Shown here piece by piece: positions 7,471 through 38,541 of a stretch of DNA of 39,162 nt. This DNA comes from Nitrospira sp. (GTDB lineage Bacteria; Nitrospirota; Nitrospiria; Nitrospirales; Nitrospiraceae): assembly GCA_029240595.1 (NCBI GenBank), contig JARDZZ010000003.1, positions 1-39,162 on the forward strand, written 5' to 3'. The first letter of the stretch is position 1, and each line of letters opens with the position of its first letter. Below the pieces are notes generated by a model. It was not told the DNA's origin. It worked only from the letters and a program-made list of their open reading frames with translations, and searched no databases. Position numbers and translations under genes: made by a program.

Positions 7471-9201
7471 TCATGACTCTTTAGCAGGATCGGCAGCCGC
7501 TCGGGCCGCGGCGTCGTTGAGTATCCATTCCACCGCCTCAGGCATCGACGACACGACCTTGTCAGGCAGTGCCTGCGCAGCCCGTAATCTCTCGACGGCC
7601 GGCGCGTCCACTTTACCGGTTGTGACCAGGACCGGTTTCGCTCCAACCGACTTGGCCAATTGCATGTCGCTGACGTGGTCGCCGATGAGGTAGGACCGTC
7701 GAAGGTCCAGTTGCAATTCGGACGCAGCACGATCGACCATCCCCCGGGCCGGTTTCCGACAACGGCAGCGGTCATCGGGATGGTGCGGGCAAAAGTAAAT
7801 GGCATCGAGCGCGGCTTCGTGTTGTTCAAGCAGACCTTCCAGGCGTGCGTGAATCGCCTCGAGGTCTTTGAGCGTCAGGAATCCCCGTCCAACTCCGGAC
7901 TGGTTCGTGACCACCACCAGCCGGGCTCCTGCCGATTTCAGACGCGCCAGAGCCGGGCCGACTCCCGGAAGCAGTTTCACATCTGCCGCTGATCTGAGAT
8001 AGCCGGGATCTTCGTTCAAGGTGCCATCGCGATCAAGGAACACTGTAAACCCTTCAAGAATTCGGTGCGGTGAAGGTCGGAAGCGGATTTGTGAACCACG
8101 TCCCTGTTCGGCGATTGACTCGGGGACAGTGAGGAGTTTGTCTGCTGCTGCATAGACGTCATGTACTGTCACGCCGGCCATGCACCGATGATCGATCGGA
8201 CAGTCACGCAGCAGGCAGGGAGCGCACTCAACCGGATGACGAACAAGTGCATGCTTCACGCCGAATGGCGACGTCGTGCGCCAATCGGTCGGACCAAAAA
8301 TGGCTACCACGGGGACGCCAAACGCTGCGGCGATATGCATCGGACCGGTGTCATTCGTGACGAGCAGAGTACATCGCTTGGTTGCGGCCATGAGCTCACG
8401 GATCGTCGTGGATCCGGAAAGGACCGCCGTGGGCGCGGTCAGGTGTGAAGCGATGGCACGTCCCAACGGTTCTTCGCCCCTGGCGCCGAGCAAGACGACC
8501 GCCGCTCGTCGGCCGGACCCATTGAGCCGCCGGCATAAGCGTTCAGCCGCATCGGCGAACCGTTCCGGGAACCAACGCTTCGCGCCGCCGTATGTCGATC
8601 CGGGATTGACGCCGATGAGCACATCCTCCGTCGTAATGCCGACCTGCTTCAAGCGTCCTGCCATGGCCTCTTCTTCTTGCGGCGAGACGACCAATTCTGG
8701 GGACACCGGCTCACCGGTTAGGCCCAGTGGTTTTAACATGTCCCAGTAGTACTGCACTTGGTGGACCACCTTGTGTCGATCAGGCTTCGCCACTGGCTCC
8801 GATAACAACAAGGTGCGCCCATCCGTCGCATAGCCATACCGCCGGGGAATCCCGGCTGCTGCTGCCAGCAACGCCGCTTCGAACGCGTTTTGAAACAGCA
8901 CCGCCAGATCGAACCCACCGCGGCGCAATTCACCGGCCAACCGCCATTTTCCCGACAGCCCCGCGTGACGTCTGCTGTCTTCATATAGCATGAGACGATC
9001 GACGGAGGGATGACGCTCAAACAGGCCGGCAACCGACGGTTTGACCAATAACGTGACCGCGGCCTGAGGGAAGAGTCGTTTGAGGCTACGCAGCGCCGGC
9101 TCACACATCACGGCGTCGCCGAGCCAGTTCGGACCGCGTACCAGAATCCGCTGCACTGAAGTTTTAATCACCGGCTCCCCCTCGAGGACGGGAGAGCTCA
9201 T
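7471..9201 (-). CDS. waaF-gmhB: Fused heptosyltransferase II (WaaF, GT9) and heptose bisphosphate phosphatase (GmhB, HAD)
   Basis: One 576-residue reading frame contains two enzymes. Residues about 18-350 form a GT9 heptosyltransferase: ILVRGPNWLGDAVM at the start, NPGSTYGGAKRWF near 199 and VTNDTGPMHIAAAFGVP near 281, which bind ADP-heptose. Residues about 385-560 form a GmhB-type HAD phosphatase: FLDRDGTLNEDPGY with the nucleophile Asp390 and Asp392, VVTNQSGVGRG, a zinc site CPHHPDDRCRC (Cys471, His473, Cys479, Cys481) and LIGDHVSDM. GmhB removes the 7-phosphate during ADP-heptose synthesis and WaaF uses the finished donor, so supply and use are joined. ATG 9201 overlaps lpxK by 38 bases; GTG 9171, with an 8-base overlap, is an equally plausible start. 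Confidence 0.9.
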   Translation of the reverse strand: MSSPVLEGEPVIKTSVQRILVRGPNWLGDAVMCEPALRSLKRLFPQAAVTLLVKPSVAGLFERHPSVDRLMLYEDSRRHAGLSGKWRLAGELRRGGFDLAVLFQNAFEAALLAAAAGIPRRYGYATDGRTLLLSEPVAKPDRHKVVHQVQYYWDMLKPLGLTGEPVSPELVVSPQEEEAMAGRLKQVGITTEDVLIGVNPGSTYGGAKRWFPERFADAAERLCRRLNGSGRRAAVVLLGARGEEPLGRAIASHLTAPTAVLSGSTTIRELMAATKRCTLLVTNDTGPMHIAAAFGVPVVAIFGPTDWRTTSPFGVKHALVRHPVECAPCLLRDCPIDHRCMAGVTVHDVYAAADKLLTVPESIAEQGRGSQIRFRPSPHRILEGFTVFLDRDGTLNEDPGYLRSAADVKLLPGVGPALARLKSAGARLVVVTNQSGVGRGFLTLKDLEAIHARLEGLLEQHEAALDAIYFCPHHPDDRCRCRKPARGMVDRAASELQLDLRRSYLIGDHVSDMQLAKSVGAKPVLVTTGKVDAPAVERLRAAQALPDKVVSSMPEAVEWILNDAAARAAADPAKES

Positions 9202-32352: not shown

Positions 32353-33180
32353 CTATCGCTCCTTCGCAATGCGGGTCGCTAGCATCGCCTCGTATACGCT
32401 TCGGATCTCAGATTCGGACACGTCGGTAATCCCTTGACCGTTGACGATCTTTGCGGTGGGATAAATGCCTCTGACCAGATCGGGGCCACCCGTCCCGACG
32501 TCGTCATCCGCCGCATTATAGAGGGCCAGGAGCGCCAACTTGAGGGCATCTTGTTCGGTCATGGCCTTCTTGAAATGCTCGCGCATCGTGTTGCGGGCAT
32601 CCTTTCCGCCTGACCCGATCGCGTGATAGTCCGATTCTTCGTAGCGTCCGCCGGCCAGATCGTACTTGAAGATGCGTCCCTCTCCCCGCTTGAGGTCGTA
32701 TCCGACATACAGCGGCATGACCACCAATCCTTGGAAGACCATCGGAAGATTAGCCTTGACCATCTGCCCAAGCTTGTTGGCCTTCCCTTCACAAGACAGT
32801 TGCATGCCTTCGAGCTTCTCGTAATGCTCAAGCTCGGTTTGGAAGAGTTTCGCCATCTCGATGCACGGTCCCGCGGCACCGGCGATCGCCATGGCCGAGT
32901 AGTCGTCGATCTTAAAGACTTTTTCAATCCGGCGTTCGGCGATCTGAAAGCCTTCCGTTGCACGGCGATCCCCGGCAATGACCACCCCTGCTTGTGACTT
33001 GACCGCCAACACGGTCGTCGCCTGCGGGACGATCACAGGGCTCACCGCCCGCGGGAGCTCATGAACCGGAAGCGGCGGTTCGGGCGGCCGGCGTCCTCCG
33101 GGCGTCAGCTCAGGGTGCTGCCTGGTCAGGAAATCAAAAAAACTCGCGTCGTCGTGGTTGGGAAGGAAGGGGAGCTTCAT
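32353..33180 (-). CDS. prcB: 20S proteasome beta subunit, catalytic
   Basis: PrcB carries the threonine protease of the 20S core. The 275-residue precursor has a 54-residue propeptide and then TTVLAVKSQAGVVIAGDRRATEG. Counting from Thr55 as mature residue 1 puts Asp at 17 and Lys at 33 (RRIEKVFKID), exactly the catalytic set of proteasomal beta subunits. The residue before the cleavage site is Ala, not the usual Gly. The segment ALYNAADDDVGTGGPDLVRGIYPTA is typical of bacterial PrcB. ATG 33180 overlaps the dop TAA by one base (TAATG); the longer frame upstream lies inside dop and is not used. Confidence 0.96.
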   Translation of the reverse strand: MKLPFLPNHDDASFFDFLTRQHPELTPGGRRPPEPPLPVHELPRAVSPVIVPQATTVLAVKSQAGVVIAGDRRATEGFQIAERRIEKVFKIDDYSAMAIAGAAGPCIEMAKLFQTELEHYEKLEGMQLSCEGKANKLGQMVKANLPMVFQGLVVMPLYVGYDLKRGEGRIFKYDLAGGRYEESDYHAIGSGGKDARNTMREHFKKAMTEQDALKLALLALYNAADDDVGTGGPDLVRGIYPTAKIVNGQGITDVSESEIRSVYEAMLATRIAKER

Positions 33181-34679
33181 TATGCCTTCAGCTTGGAGAG
33201 CAACGCCTCTGCCGTGTCCGACTGGTCGAGCAATTCGGCCGTCAGAGATTCCGTCCCCCGCAAGGGATCCATCAGCGGCACCTTCTTGATCGTGGTATTG
33301 CCCACATCGAAGAGCACCGACGTCCAGCTGGCGCCATAGATGGATTTCGAAAACTTGCCGATACACCGTCCCCGGAAGTAGGCACGCGTGCCCGAAGGCG
33401 GGGTGAATTCGGCGCGGATGACTTCGACATCCTGCACCACCCGCTCGATCAGATGGCTCCGCTCCAGCGTATAGTAGAGTCCTCTGTCAGGCCGGATGTC
33501 ATGATACTGCAGGTCCATAAGGCGCACGCGTGGATCGTCCCACCCGCATCCCTTTCGGTCCATATACGACTCGATCATGTGCCGCTTGGCCGCCCAATCA
33601 AGTTCTCCGGCCAGCGATCGCGGATCCCGTTCAAGCTTGTCCAGCACGTCTTCCCACCGGACGAGAACGTCCTTGGTCACCTGATCCAATTCATGGCAGG
33701 CGTAAAAATTCATGGCAGACTTGAGATACGCGCGCTGAATTTCCACGGCGGTCGTCGAGCGGCCGTCCGTCATTTTTAACGTTCCCTTCATCGTCAAATC
33801 GCGCGAGACCTGCTTGATCCCCATCACAGGATCGTCCAGTTCAATATCAGGGACATCCACTCCGGCCTCGAGCAGATCCAAGACAATGCCCAGGGTCCCA
33901 ACCTTGAGATACGTGGACAGCTCCGCCATGTTCGCATCGCCGACGATGACGTGAAGCCGGCGGTACTTGCCATAGTCGGCATGCGGCTCATCCCGCGAGT
34001 TGACGATCGGCCGCTTGACCATGGTATTCAGGTCAACCAGGCATTCGAAAAAATCGGCCCGCTGAGATATCTGAAATTCGGTGAAACTGGTTTGATTTTC
34101 TGCACCGACTTTACCGGCGCCCGCATAGATCAATCGGGTGACGAAGAAGGGAGCCAGCGTCTTCACGATCCGTTCAAAAGGCACCGACCGTGAAAGCATA
34201 TAGTTTTCATGATACCCGTAACTGTTTCCCTTGCCGTCCGAATTGTTCTTGTACAGCACGAATTGGTCTCGCCCTCTGAGCCGCGCCATGTTGTCGAGGC
34301 ATTGACCGAGAATCCGCTCGCTGATGCGCTCGTATGCCACAACTTCACGCGGGTTTGTGCATTCGGGCGTGGAATACTCCGGATGAGCGCCATCGACATA
34401 GAGCCGGCCGCCGTTGGCGAGGACCTTGTTCAATTGGCGGTTGTAATCGGGGTTCGGCCGTTCCCGCTCGCCCTCCACTTCAAACCCTCGAGCATCGAGC
34501 AGCGGATTCTCGTTCTCATAGTCCCACACCGCATGAGGAACCGAAATGCCGGGATAATGGCCGATGACTGCCAGTGAATTTGATATCGGATCGACCGCGG
34601 AAGCATCCCGTGAGGCGATGCCGAATTCCGTTTCGGTTCCCAGTACGCGAGGCGTCGTCAGGGGTGTGGAGTCCCGCAT
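33180..34679 (-). CDS. dop: Depupylase/deamidase Dop
   Basis: Dop removes Pup from substrates and, where Pup ends in Gln, deamidates it to Glu. The 499-residue protein has GTETEFGI (residues 14-21) with the ATP/metal-binding acids, then a long insertion rich in charged residues (about 36-78, including WDYENENPLLDARGFEVEG) that corresponds to the Dop loop and separates it from PafA. RLYVDGAHPEYSTPEC contains the key Asp96, and NSRDEPHADYGKYRRLHVIVGDAN and RAYFRGRCIGKFSKSIYGASW follow. It is six bases downstream of arc and overlaps prcB by one base. Confidence 0.94.
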   Translation of the reverse strand: MRDSTPLTTPRVLGTETEFGIASRDASAVDPISNSLAVIGHYPGISVPHAVWDYENENPLLDARGFEVEGERERPNPDYNRQLNKVLANGGRLYVDGAHPEYSTPECTNPREVVAYERISERILGQCLDNMARLRGRDQFVLYKNNSDGKGNSYGYHENYMLSRSVPFERIVKTLAPFFVTRLIYAGAGKVGAENQTSFTEFQISQRADFFECLVDLNTMVKRPIVNSRDEPHADYGKYRRLHVIVGDANMAELSTYLKVGTLGIVLDLLEAGVDVPDIELDDPVMGIKQVSRDLTMKGTLKMTDGRSTTAVEIQRAYLKSAMNFYACHELDQVTKDVLVRWEDVLDKLERDPRSLAGELDWAAKRHMIESYMDRKGCGWDDPRVRLMDLQYHDIRPDRGLYYTLERSHLIERVVQDVEVIRAEFTPPSGTRAYFRGRCIGKFSKSIYGASWTSVLFDVGNTTIKKVPLMDPLRGTESLTAELLDQSDTAEALLSKLKA

Positions 34680-34685
34680 GGGGGG

Positions 34686-36455
34686 TTAGAGATAATGGCC
34701 GGTGGTGATAGTTTCGATCTGACGGGACTCGGCCGGGCCGCCGCTGATCGTCCTGATGTGCACGATCTTCTCACCTTTCTTACCGGCGACTTTCGCCCAG
34801 TCATCCGGGTTAGTCGTATTAGGCAGATCTTCGTGCTCTTTGAACTCTTCGCGAATCGCCCGGATCAGGTCGTCCGATCGAAGGCCGCGGCCCTCTTGGG
34901 CAAGAGCCCGTTTGACCGCATACTTCTTGGCGCGCGACACGATGCCTTCAATCAAGGCACCGCTGGCAAAATCCTTGAAATACAGAATCTCCTTCTCGCC
35001 GTTGGCGTAAGTGACCTCGATGAATTTATTTTCTTCGGAGGTCGCATACATGGCTCCCACAGTCAGGTCGGTCAAATGCTCGACCAACGCCTTGGGATCG
35101 CCTCCGTGACGCTTTAACTCATCTTCATCGAAGGGCAGACTCGTTCCCACGTATTTCGAGAAAATGTCCTTGGCGGCGACCGCATCGGGGCGCCCCACCT
35201 TCACCTTCACGTCCAATCGTCCCGCACGCAGCACCGCCGGGTCGATGAGATCTTGGCGATTGCTTGCACCAATCACGATGACGTTGCGGAGGCGCTCAAC
35301 ACCGTCGATCTCGGAGAGGAACTGCGGGACGATGGTGGATTCAATATCTGAGGAAATCCCGGTTCCCCTCGTGCGGAACAACGCATCCATCTCGTCAAAA
35401 AAAACGATGACCGGGTTCCCGTCGGCGGCGCGCTCTTTGGCCTTCTTGAACACCTCACGCACCTGCCGTTCGGACTCGCCAACATATTTATTGAGGAGCT
35501 CCGGTCCTTTGACGTGAAGGAAATAGCTCCGAACTTCCTTTCCGGTGAGGTGCCCCAGCTTTTTCGCAATGCTGTTCGCCACGGCCTTGGCAATGAGCGT
35601 CTTGCCGCAGCCCGGAGGGCCATACAGCAACACGCCTTTGGGTGCACTGAGCTGGTATTCCGCAAACAGGTGGGGATGCAGGAATGGCAGCTCGACCGCG
35701 TCGCGTACCTGCTCCAGTTCGTGCTGGAGTCCGCCAATGTTGGCATAATCGACATCCGGCACTTCCTCCAACACCAATTCTTCGGCTTCGGACTTCGGCA
35801 GCTTTTCGATCACGCAGCCGGAGCGTGGATCGAACAGAAGATGATCGCCGACACTCAGCCGCTCAGCCAGCAGCGGATCGCCCAATTCGGCCACTTTTTC
35901 TTCATCGAAATGCAGAGTGACGAGCGCGCGGTTGCCTTCCAGTAAATCCTTCAACCGCACGACTTCACCCTGGACATCGAATCCGCGAGCCTCGATGACG
36001 TTCAAGGCTTCATTCAAAATCACTTCCTGTCCCTTCCGCAAACCCTTGCCCATAAGGGACGGGTGCAAGCTCACTTTCATCTTCCGTCCCGACACGTACA
36101 CGTTGCCCGTCCCGTCCTGGTTGAGACTGGAAAAGATCGCGTATGTCGAAGGCGGAGCGGTCAGTTTTTCGACTTCAGCACGCAGCGCTTCAATTTGCGC
36201 TTTGGCTTCCTGGAGGGTATTGACCAGTTTTTCGTTTTGTTTATTGGCTTGATCGAGCTGGTAACGGGATTGGTACAGCCGACGGATTTCTTCTTCCATC
36301 GACTGAATTTGGACGCGAAGCTTTTCGATCTCTCTCGCTTGTTCGTCGTTACGATGAATCACGTCTGGATCTCCCTCGGACAACCGCTTGGTGATGTGCT
36401 TCACGGAATCTCGGAGGGACCGTAGGCGGCTTGGTCTTCCTTTCGTATCAGCCAT
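34686..36455 (-). CDS. arc: Proteasome-associated AAA ATPase (ARC/Mpa)
   Basis: ARC/Mpa unfolds tagged substrates and feeds them into the 20S core as a hexameric ring. The 589-residue protein has an N-terminal coiled coil (about residues 35-98), where Pup-type tags bind, then two OB-fold domains (about 100-220), and the AAA module with Walker A GPPGCGKT (279-286), pore-loop region LLNKYVGESERQ and Walker B VIVFFDEMDALF. It ends in GHYL, equivalent to the C-terminal GQYL motif that docks into the alpha ring. The frame also opens at TTG 36479, but ATG 36455 has AGGTGG five bases upstream and is chosen. Confidence 0.95.
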   Translation of the reverse strand: MADTKGRPSRLRSLRDSVKHITKRLSEGDPDVIHRNDEQAREIEKLRVQIQSMEEEIRRLYQSRYQLDQANKQNEKLVNTLQEAKAQIEALRAEVEKLTAPPSTYAIFSSLNQDGTGNVYVSGRKMKVSLHPSLMGKGLRKGQEVILNEALNVIEARGFDVQGEVVRLKDLLEGNRALVTLHFDEEKVAELGDPLLAERLSVGDHLLFDPRSGCVIEKLPKSEAEELVLEEVPDVDYANIGGLQHELEQVRDAVELPFLHPHLFAEYQLSAPKGVLLYGPPGCGKTLIAKAVANSIAKKLGHLTGKEVRSYFLHVKGPELLNKYVGESERQVREVFKKAKERAADGNPVIVFFDEMDALFRTRGTGISSDIESTIVPQFLSEIDGVERLRNVIVIGASNRQDLIDPAVLRAGRLDVKVKVGRPDAVAAKDIFSKYVGTSLPFDEDELKRHGGDPKALVEHLTDLTVGAMYATSEENKFIEVTYANGEKEILYFKDFASGALIEGIVSRAKKYAVKRALAQEGRGLRSDDLIRAIREEFKEHEDLPNTTNPDDWAKVAGKKGEKIVHIRTISGGPAESRQIETITTGHYL

Positions 36456-36514
36456 GGAACCACCTGGGACAAGCGACAAGCGCTGCTAAATCGCATCGTC
36501 CAAGTCTTGAGCGG

Positions 36515-36568: not shown

Positions 36569-36603
36569 AATGCGCCGATACGGCACGATCACACCGGCGC
36601 ATT
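36569..36603 (-). terminator. Stem-loop at the end of thiE
   Basis: AATGCGCCG (36569-36577) and CGGCGCATT (36595-36603) form a perfect 9-bp stem around a 17-base loop; it includes the last thiE codons and stop. There is no T-run after it, so it may be a weak terminator or an mRNA 3'-end structure separating thiE from the proteasome promoter. Confidence 0.4.
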
Positions 36604-37221
36604 CACCGCCTCGAGCAGCTCGGTGGTCGCGGCTTCGACATCGTCTGCGCAAAGGATGGCTGTGATCACGGCGACGCCAAAAGCGCCTGCACGGCGCAAC
36701 TCTCGTGCGCGACCGGCAGTCACGCCGCCGATTGCAAAGATCGGCAGCCGAACGGCTCGTGCCGCCTCTTCCAATGTCGGCAACCCCAGCGGAGGCCCGA
36801 ACAGTCGTTTCGACGGTGTATCATACACCGGACCGAGCACGACGTAGTCCGCCCCGTTTGCTTCGACTTCCACGGCTTCCGCCACTGAATGCGCCGACGC
36901 CCCGAGCAGCCTGAGAGGGTTGAGCAACCTGCGGGCGACGCCCACCGGCAGGCTGTTGCTGCGCAGATGGACCCCGGCTTCTTCAAGCGACAGCGCCACA
37001 TCGAGACGGTCGTTGATCAGGAGCTGGCCTTTATGAGGCTCCATCAACTGCTGTATCTCAGCTGCAAGAGTGAGGAGATTTTTCGCGCAGAGGTCGCGCT
37101 CTCGCAATTGGATCGCAATCTTCCCGGCCCTCAACGCCTGGTCAAGGACTGACAGTAGCGGTCTGCCCTTGGTGTGTTGACGATCCGTGATTAAGAGAAG
37201 ACGCGACTCAAGCGCAGCCAT
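36589..37221 (-). CDS. thiE: Thiamine-phosphate synthase
   Basis: ThiE couples the pyrimidine diphosphate HMP-PP to the thiazole phosphate made by ThiG, giving thiamine monophosphate. The 210-residue TIM-barrel protein has LLLITDRQ at the start, IQLRERDL (pyrophosphate-binding Arg), LLINDRLDVAL, GVHLRSNSLP, GADYVVLGPVYDTPSK and FAIGGVTAGRARELRRAGAFGVAVI, all expected for the family. ATG 37221 is the start. It is separated from thiG by a MITE-like repeat, so whether all three thi genes are still on one transcript is unclear. Confidence 0.93.
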   Translation of the reverse strand: MAALESRLLLITDRQHTKGRPLLSVLDQALRAGKIAIQLRERDLCAKNLLTLAAEIQQLMEPHKGQLLINDRLDVALSLEEAGVHLRSNSLPVGVARRLLNPLRLLGASAHSVAEAVEVEANGADYVVLGPVYDTPSKRLFGPPLGLPTLEEAARAVRLPIFAIGGVTAGRARELRRAGAFGVAVITAILCADDVEAATTELLEAVNAPV

Positions 37222-37262
37222 GAAAGGCCAGAAAAGTACGCAGGATCATTGGTAGGTTCGTT

Positions 37263-37520
37263 CAGGATGCTCAAAACGGTTTTCTGTTCTCACCCGCCCA
37301 CCCGGGCGCGCCGAGACGCGCTTGTCACCATGAGCAAGGCCGCAGCAAGCGCAGGGACGAAGCGTAAACCTTTCTCACCCGCCCGCCCCGAGCTGCAAGA
37401 GCAGCTCATTGCCCGCGCCTGTACGCTGAGCTCCCTGAGCGATGCGAGAACGAACTCGGTGGAGGTGCGTCTTGGCGCACCGGGGCGGGTGGGTGAAAAG
37501 GTGGCGTTTTCAGCATCCTG
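37263..37520. repeat. MITE-like element with 16-bp terminal inverted repeats
   Basis: The ends are CAGGATGCTCAAAACG (37263-37278) and, inverted, CAGGATGCTGAAAACG (37505-37520): 15 of 16 bases match. Inside are the hairpins GCGCG-N6-CGCGC (37306-37321) and GAGCTGC-AAGA-GCAGCTC (37390-37407), and CACCCGCCCGCCCC near 37376 pairs imperfectly with GGGGCGGGTGGGTGA near 37482. The element is non-coding and about 258 bp. Its right end is immediately next to the thiG stop codon (37521-37523). A degenerate copy lies at 29915-30196. No clear target-site duplication was found. Confidence 0.78.
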
Positions 37521-38294
37521 CTAGAGCATGCCTTCGATGGGACTGCTAGCCGTCGCGTACAGTTTCCGGGGAATGCGGCCGGCTTTGTAAGCCAACCGGC
37601 CGGCATGCACGGCGTATTTCATGGCCTCTGCCATCGCGATGGGATCTTGTGCACCTGCGATGGCCGTATTCATGAGTACGGCATCGGCTCCGTACTCCAT
37701 CGCCAGCGCCGCATCTGAAGCCGTGCCGACTCCCGCATCAACAACGATGGGGACCTTGACCGTTTCCATGATGATTTTCAAATTATACGGATTGCGTATG
37801 CCCAGGCCCGATCCGATGGGTGCCGCCAGCGGCATGACGGCAGGACAGCCGATGTCCACGAGCTTCTTGGCGACGATGGGATCGTCGTTCGTGTAAGGGA
37901 GGACAATGAATCCTTCCTTGATGAGAATCTTGGCGGCTTCGATCAAGCCTCCCGTATCGGGAAACAATGTTTTCTCATCCCCCAGCACTTCCAGCTTGAC
38001 GAGATCAGACACTCCGGCCGCCCGCGCGAGCCGCGCATACCGCACGGCATCCTCCACCGTGTAACAACCGGCCGTATTGGGAAGGATCGTATATTTCTTC
38101 GGATCGATGAAGTCGAGCAGATTCTCTTTCGAGCGATCCGTGATGTTCACGCGGCGCACCGCCACCGTCACGACGTCCGCTCCGGAGACTTCGATCGCCT
38201 TCTTGGTCTCGGCAAAATCTTTGTACTTACCGGTTCCCACCCACAGCCTGGATTTGAACTCACGGCCGGCGATCACCAGTCGGTCATTGTGCAT
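37521..38294 (-). CDS. thiG: Thiazole synthase
   Basis: ThiG forms the thiamine thiazole ring from deoxyxylulose phosphate, a glycine-derived imine and sulfur delivered by ThiS thiocarboxylate. The 257-residue protein has [15 protein letters not shown] at the start, [40 protein letters not shown] with the Schiff-base Lys, [47 protein letters not shown] and [10 protein letters not shown]. The ATG at 38294 lies inside the end of thiS and has AAGGAGGG just upstream. Intact and of normal length. Confidence 0.96.
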
Positions 38295-38541
38295 GGGTCG
38301 GAACCCTCCTTATCCAGCCGTCATCCGGACCACCGCCGCCGATGAAGCTCAAAATCTCCACTCGATCCCCTGCTTTGAGGCCACGCCGATCGAATTCCTG
38401 GCGATCCAAAATTTCCAGGTTTAATTCCACAGCCACCCGCTCAGTCTTGAGGTCCAAATCCCGCAACAGATCACCGACCGTGGCTCCGGAGGGGCAATCG
38501 CGGGATTCGCCGTTGACCTGAATCTGCAATGGCTCAGCCAT
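38284..38541 (-). CDS. thiS: Sulfur carrier protein ThiS with a C-terminal extension
   Basis: ThiS is a ubiquitin-fold protein whose C-terminal Gly-Gly is adenylated by ThiF and carries sulfur to ThiG. The 85-residue protein has [36 protein letters not shown] and [14 protein letters not shown], the whole beta-grasp fold. Instead of ending at the glycines it continues with [15 protein letters not shown]; four glycines occupy 68-71 and 14 residues follow. The tail codons contain the thiG ribosome site and its ATG, so the extension may reflect gene overlap. As it stands the carrier could not be activated without removal of the tail. Confidence 0.88.

Follow-up and report, generated by a model that had tools for sequence, protein, structure and literature searches.

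The 258-bp block between thiG and thiE in the window, the whole stretch of 39,162 nucleotides analysed here, is very probably a decayed, non-autonomous MITE of an IS5-family group living in the Nitrospiraceae, judging from comparison of its copies within and between genomes. Nitrospira play a key part in nitrite oxidation and in complete ammonia oxidation. No published description of this abundant Nitrospira repeat family was found in the literature searched, and the analysis gives the family its ends, its target rule and its probable transposase. The window's ThiG is 92–97% identical to proteins from many Nitrospira genomes, which places the window in the Nitrospira group. As originally predicted, the block sits among thi genes, with ThiE, ThiG and ThiS all encoded on the minus strand:

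36589–37221, minus strand: thiE (thiamine phosphate synthase), from its ORF and protein identification
37222–37262, minus strand: 41-nt spacer from the element to the thiE start, in which no tail, right terminus or right CTAG can be recognised
37263–37520, minus strand: the MITE copy, very probably a hairpin core of family size 122–126 bp that nested G+C-rich modules have brought to 258 bp
37263–37278, plus strand: inverted copy of the left end (the C end, CAGGATGCTCAAAACG), the last recognisable part of the window copy and internal in full-length relatives
37287–37319, plus strand: nested REP-like module TTCTCACCCGCCCACCCGGGCGCGCCGAGACGC, also found alone elsewhere in the genome
37372–37390, plus strand: third, short module piece near the apex, from repeat comparison
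37467–37499, minus strand: second, inverted nested module, 82% complementary to 37287–37319
37505–37520, minus strand: left terminus (the G end), CAGGATGCTGAAAACG on the minus strand, from repeat comparison and the family consensus
37521–37523, minus strand: thiG stop codon TAG, at which the element directly begins
37521–37524, minus strand: target tetranucleotide CTAG on the element's left, from the sequence, the end of the thiG ORF and the family's YTAR flanks and duplication
37521–38294, minus strand: thiG (thiazole synthase), from its ORF and protein identification
38284–38541, minus strand: thiS, from its ORF and protein identification

The thi genes are adjoined at 33180–36479 by genes for a Pup ligase and a proteasomal ATPase, a bacterial proteasome locus.

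Repeat comparison agrees with the original prediction of 16-bp inverted ends (37263–37278 and 37505–37520, 15 of 16 nt matching, 94% complementary), and the predicted internal hairpin arms and inverted G+C-rich arm are likewise found, for example at 37287–37319 and 37467–37499. The sequence AGGATGCTSAAAA occurs at two places only in the window, the two ends of the block, with 0.05 expected. The description of both repeats as terminal holds for the left end, which is a true terminus; relatives show 37263–37278 to be an internal inverted copy. Folding, proposed as a check, gives one long hairpin: on the thi strand, the 263 nt from 37260 to 37522 reach −142.5 kcal/mol against −107.6 ± 5.2 kcal/mol for shuffled sequences (z −6.7; 0 of 200 shuffles as low). 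The predicted lack of a transposase is borne out by the ORF list, which holds no transposase ORF inside the block; the sole long ORF over it, at 37249–37524, is a mechanical frame of 91 codons with a TTG start. To the right of the window copy there is no recognisable tail, right terminus or right 4-bp duplication, and CTAG is present at the left only, so that the copy is probably decayed, its tail and right flank having probably been lost.

Three pieces of a REP-like G+C-rich module lie within the window copy. This module (TTCTCACCCGCCCACCC with GGCGCGCCGAGACGCGCC) is separate from the MITE; it is scattered through the genome, sometimes in tandem, and nests inside MITE copies, with sites at 37287–37319, 37372–37390 and 37467–37499 of the window and at loci L005–L009, L012, L014 and L019.

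On sequence similarity, the element is a repeat family spread through the Nitrospiraceae. Searched as nucleotides against the genome it comes from, the block gave 20 matches including itself, mostly partial, and the AGGATGCTSAAAA end occurs at four further places in that genome. Fifty-four canonical copies were used to build a covariance model of the core, which found 24 places in the window's genome (an assembly 85% complete) and at least one match in each of the 25 genomes searched; genome G014, which is 99% complete, held the most core copies of these, at least 142. The exact G end was present in all 32 species of the G014 genus, with 1 to 145 copies each, while a reversed control pattern gave zero matches in nearly all genomes and one stray match. 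The block is thus multicopy in its own and related genomes, the opposite of the single-copy status named beforehand as speaking against a mobile repeat. No similar sequence was present in a plasmid collection or a phage collection, and spread via plasmids or phages was accordingly set aside. Origin as a known structured RNA family was also rejected, there being no Rfam match up to E 0.1 at four copy-bearing loci, the window copy included.

At full length, elements of the family measure about 200 bp: they start with CAGGATG(C/T)TGAAAAA, continue through the hairpin core and a variable tail of about 60 nt, end in TTTTTCCGCAGCCTG and lie between two copies of a YTAR tetranucleotide. The core measures 122–126 bp in most copies, longer copies having nested modules. 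Its G end and C end (73 and 73 exact ends in G014) differ by one base, and copies therefore have a direction. At filled proB and carA sites in the G014 genus, about 76 nt extend beyond the C end to TTTTTCCGCAGCCTG or a variant, and at filled sites an end of this type is directly followed by a tetranucleotide (for example CTAG, TTAG or CTAA). The tail was recognised in about a third of all copies scanned. The outer flanking 4-mers, mostly CTAG, are identical in 19 of 39 pairs, among them CTAA/CTAA, TTAG/TTAG and CTAT/CTAT; shuffling gave a mean of 10.1, and none of 5000 shuffles reached 19, which amounts to a 4-bp YTAR target duplication. A single-ended mechanism without duplication, considered because the C end has no CTAG flank, was dropped once the tail and the second end appeared. 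At what is apparently the same site, L044 (8414–8535) holds a 122-bp core and L054 (near 8414–8475) a 62-bp core, with nearly identical tails.

The termini and the duplication also bear on whether the family could be a REP/REPIN element moved by a RAYT, a Y1 single-strand transposase. The long palindrome, the intergenic position and the REP-like modules nested in the window copy are features that would fit, and Y1 transposases are present in some Nitrospiraceae. Terminal inverted repeats and a duplication of 4 bp, such as this element has, are nevertheless not known to be made by Y1 transposases. A RAYT/REP origin was rejected as highly improbable because no Y1 transposase was found in copy-rich G014 (99% complete, at least 142 core matches) or in the window's incomplete assembly.

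Filled and empty orthologous sites were found for carA and proB in the G014 genus and for thiG. In relatives with an empty carA site, the TAG is followed by the spacer; in those with a filled site, the element follows the TAG and the spacer resumes past the right tetranucleotide. A family element directly adjoins the thiG stop in four genomes, the window's and those of L029, L034 and L056, and in a ThiG and ThiE tree the nearest relatives of these four have no family element at thiG. The thiG–thiE site of L044, L048 and L054 comprises 28 bp only, and other relatives hold different palindromic repeats there. Independent insertions at thiG are the simplest reading, with loss the alternative. Conservation of the same sequence at this locus, also named beforehand as speaking against mobility, is not what the relatives show: the site is filled in few of those examined, and the versions differ and are scattered on the tree. 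Other palindromic repeats, made of heptamer-like units (GAGTGCTGAGT..., GTGATGCGTGATGGG...), fill these spacers in other species, directly behind thiG at L028, L030 and L041 and behind proB at L272, L281 and L288.

A search for the second end of the MITE led to L352. This element is 1318 bp long, has CAGGCTGCGGAAAAA as its two ends, lies between CTAG and TTAG, and encodes a 363-residue IS5-family protein that matches the transposase family NF033581 (E 1.4e-79). Its relatives in G017, G080, G081 and an Azospirillum plasmid have ends and flanks of the same kind, an ISAzs10-like Azospirillum element having TTAG at both sides; among relatives in other Nitrospiraceae, ends such as CAGGATGTTGAAAAA/CAGGGTGTTGAAAAA occur together with CTAG flanks. 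IS5 is reported to duplicate YTAR (PMC10359306). The IS ends CAGGATGTTGAAAAA, which is exact in several MITE copies, and CAGGCTGCGGAAAAA are 15-mers identical to MITE ends, and the left end of the window copy matches IS5-family ends at 13 of 15 positions by inspection. The ends are the only sequence that IS and MITE have in common. A full IS5 partner was not found in the window's assembly (85% complete) or in G014. The 1.3-kb IS5-family IS is the probable source of transposase for the MITE, and together with the multicopy status and the target duplication this candidate transposase supports the original suggestion of a MITE or mobile passenger. IS110 was rejected as the driver, since the 1269-bp copy at L136 1022–2290 in G017 is an ordinary MITE copy that a gene for an IS110-family (RNA-guided) transposase interrupts.

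An IS5-family transposase, supplied in trans by the 1.3-kb element with the same ends, would move the MITE, and insertion into a YTAR site would duplicate 4 bp. Where the site is a TAG or TAA stop, the duplication would restore the stop codon, leaving the protein unchanged and allowing the insertion to survive; copies may lie directly behind stops because such insertions are harmless to the protein. By using a target with a stop codon in it, which duplication restores, a transposon would have a simple route to harmless insertion. The window copy would have entered at the thiG stop, later gaining REP-like modules and losing its tail and right flank.

Consistent with such a target, 83 of 122 directed copies have a stop triplet right before the G end (TAG 60, TAA 18, TGA 5). 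Long frames of the window and related loci use TGA most often (140, against 78 TAA and 73 TAG), and yet the copies favour TAG and TAA, which indicates that the TAG/TAA sequence is preferred and not stops in general. The triplet at the G end closes a frame of at least 80 codons in 60 of the 122 copies, and at the C end in 2. Thirteen copies that were located by the model rather than through their ends behave alike: a stop triplet precedes the left end in 11, and in 8 of these it closes a frame of at least 90 codons. The TAG-containing target accounts for part of the stop-codon position, yet stops are more frequent than the motif alone would give: of 36 full-length copies, 25 touch a long-frame stop at either end, compared with 38 of 372 intergenic YTAR sites that are stops. 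Given a rough YTAR background, drawn from other loci with greedy ORFs, and a set of copies that includes orthologous ones, the stop excess is taken as real and its size as uncertain. Where one end alone lies at a stop, it is the left end in 17 cases and the tail end in 6.

This excess of stop codons, about seven-fold at filled YTAR sites, and the precise position at 0 nt from the stop, could mean that the transposase itself prefers gene ends by targeting beyond YTAR, rather than that selection removes other insertions. We consider this unlikely, as rough gene calls at different loci and in different species supplied the YTAR background, and purifying selection against promoter and gene hits could give the same picture.

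The same excess beyond the motif, the 60 copies that begin at a long-frame stop and the left end's greater frequency at stops would suit an RNA element at gene 3′ ends that the host selects, its copies being kept because the hairpin ends transcription or else shields or exposes the mRNA upstream. That 9 of 31 pairs in the consensus of the family hairpin have changed in a compensatory way suggests that the hairpin is kept, whether as RNA or as DNA, although covariation in palindromes can also come from DNA-level repair. In Yersinia, ERIC elements alter mRNA stability (PMC2229807). Such an origin is nonetheless doubtful: presence at thiG and carA is patchy among relatives, unlike that of a needed regulator, TAG is favoured over the commonest stop, TGA, and the window element has no terminator-like site. 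The last result, a count of 0 intrinsic terminators (G+C stem-loop then U run) in 37100–37700, also leaves the terminator role first proposed for the block without support. With no such site, and compensatory changes ambiguous between RNA and DNA, the block is rated a mobile passenger with a possible effect on thiG–thiE mRNA. Towards the thi genes the element probably acts passively, lengthening the thiG–thiE spacer to 299 nt and placing a very stable hairpin in the transcript. More speculatively, and with little confidence, the transposon system might place a ready-made 3′ untranslated hairpin exactly behind stops family-wide, YTAR overlapping TAG/TAA, the duplication restoring the stop, the hairpin taking on an mRNA-end role, and targeting or selection for gene ends acting beyond the motif. 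Filled and empty orthologous sites across the 32 species of one genus make an effect on gene expression directly testable.

One of the closest known systems is MITEPsy1 of Pseudomonas syringae, a 100-nt, gene-less element with terminal inverted repeats, a CTAG or YTAA 4-nt duplication and ends resembling the full IS ISPsy2; its end sequence is different, and the part of its description consulted here mentions neither a hairpin core with tail nor a stop-codon bias (PMC3189936). The IS5-family ISs (ISAzs10-like; NF033581) have CAGG..GAAAAA ends and YTAR flanks in common with the MITE, but are 1.3 kb long and carry a transposase. The ERIC/IRU elements of enterobacteria are 127-bp intergenic MITE-type elements, some affecting mRNA, but have TA at their termini, another sequence and no IS5 ends (PMC2229807). 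RUP of pneumococcus is likewise a MITE assigned to an IS via common ends and target, though of IS630 type with a TA target (PMC2229807). REP/REPIN elements with RAYT are also palindromic, intergenic and multicopy, but the Nitrospiraceae element has terminal inverted repeats and a duplication, and copy-rich G014 is without RAYT. Different end types (CAGGATGCT, CAGGATGTT, CAGGCTGTT, CAGGTTGTT) occur at L003, L013, L020, L152, L382, L385 and L395; several of the odd-ended copies share one kind of core, which looks as though it were combined with the ends of several IS5 subgroups.
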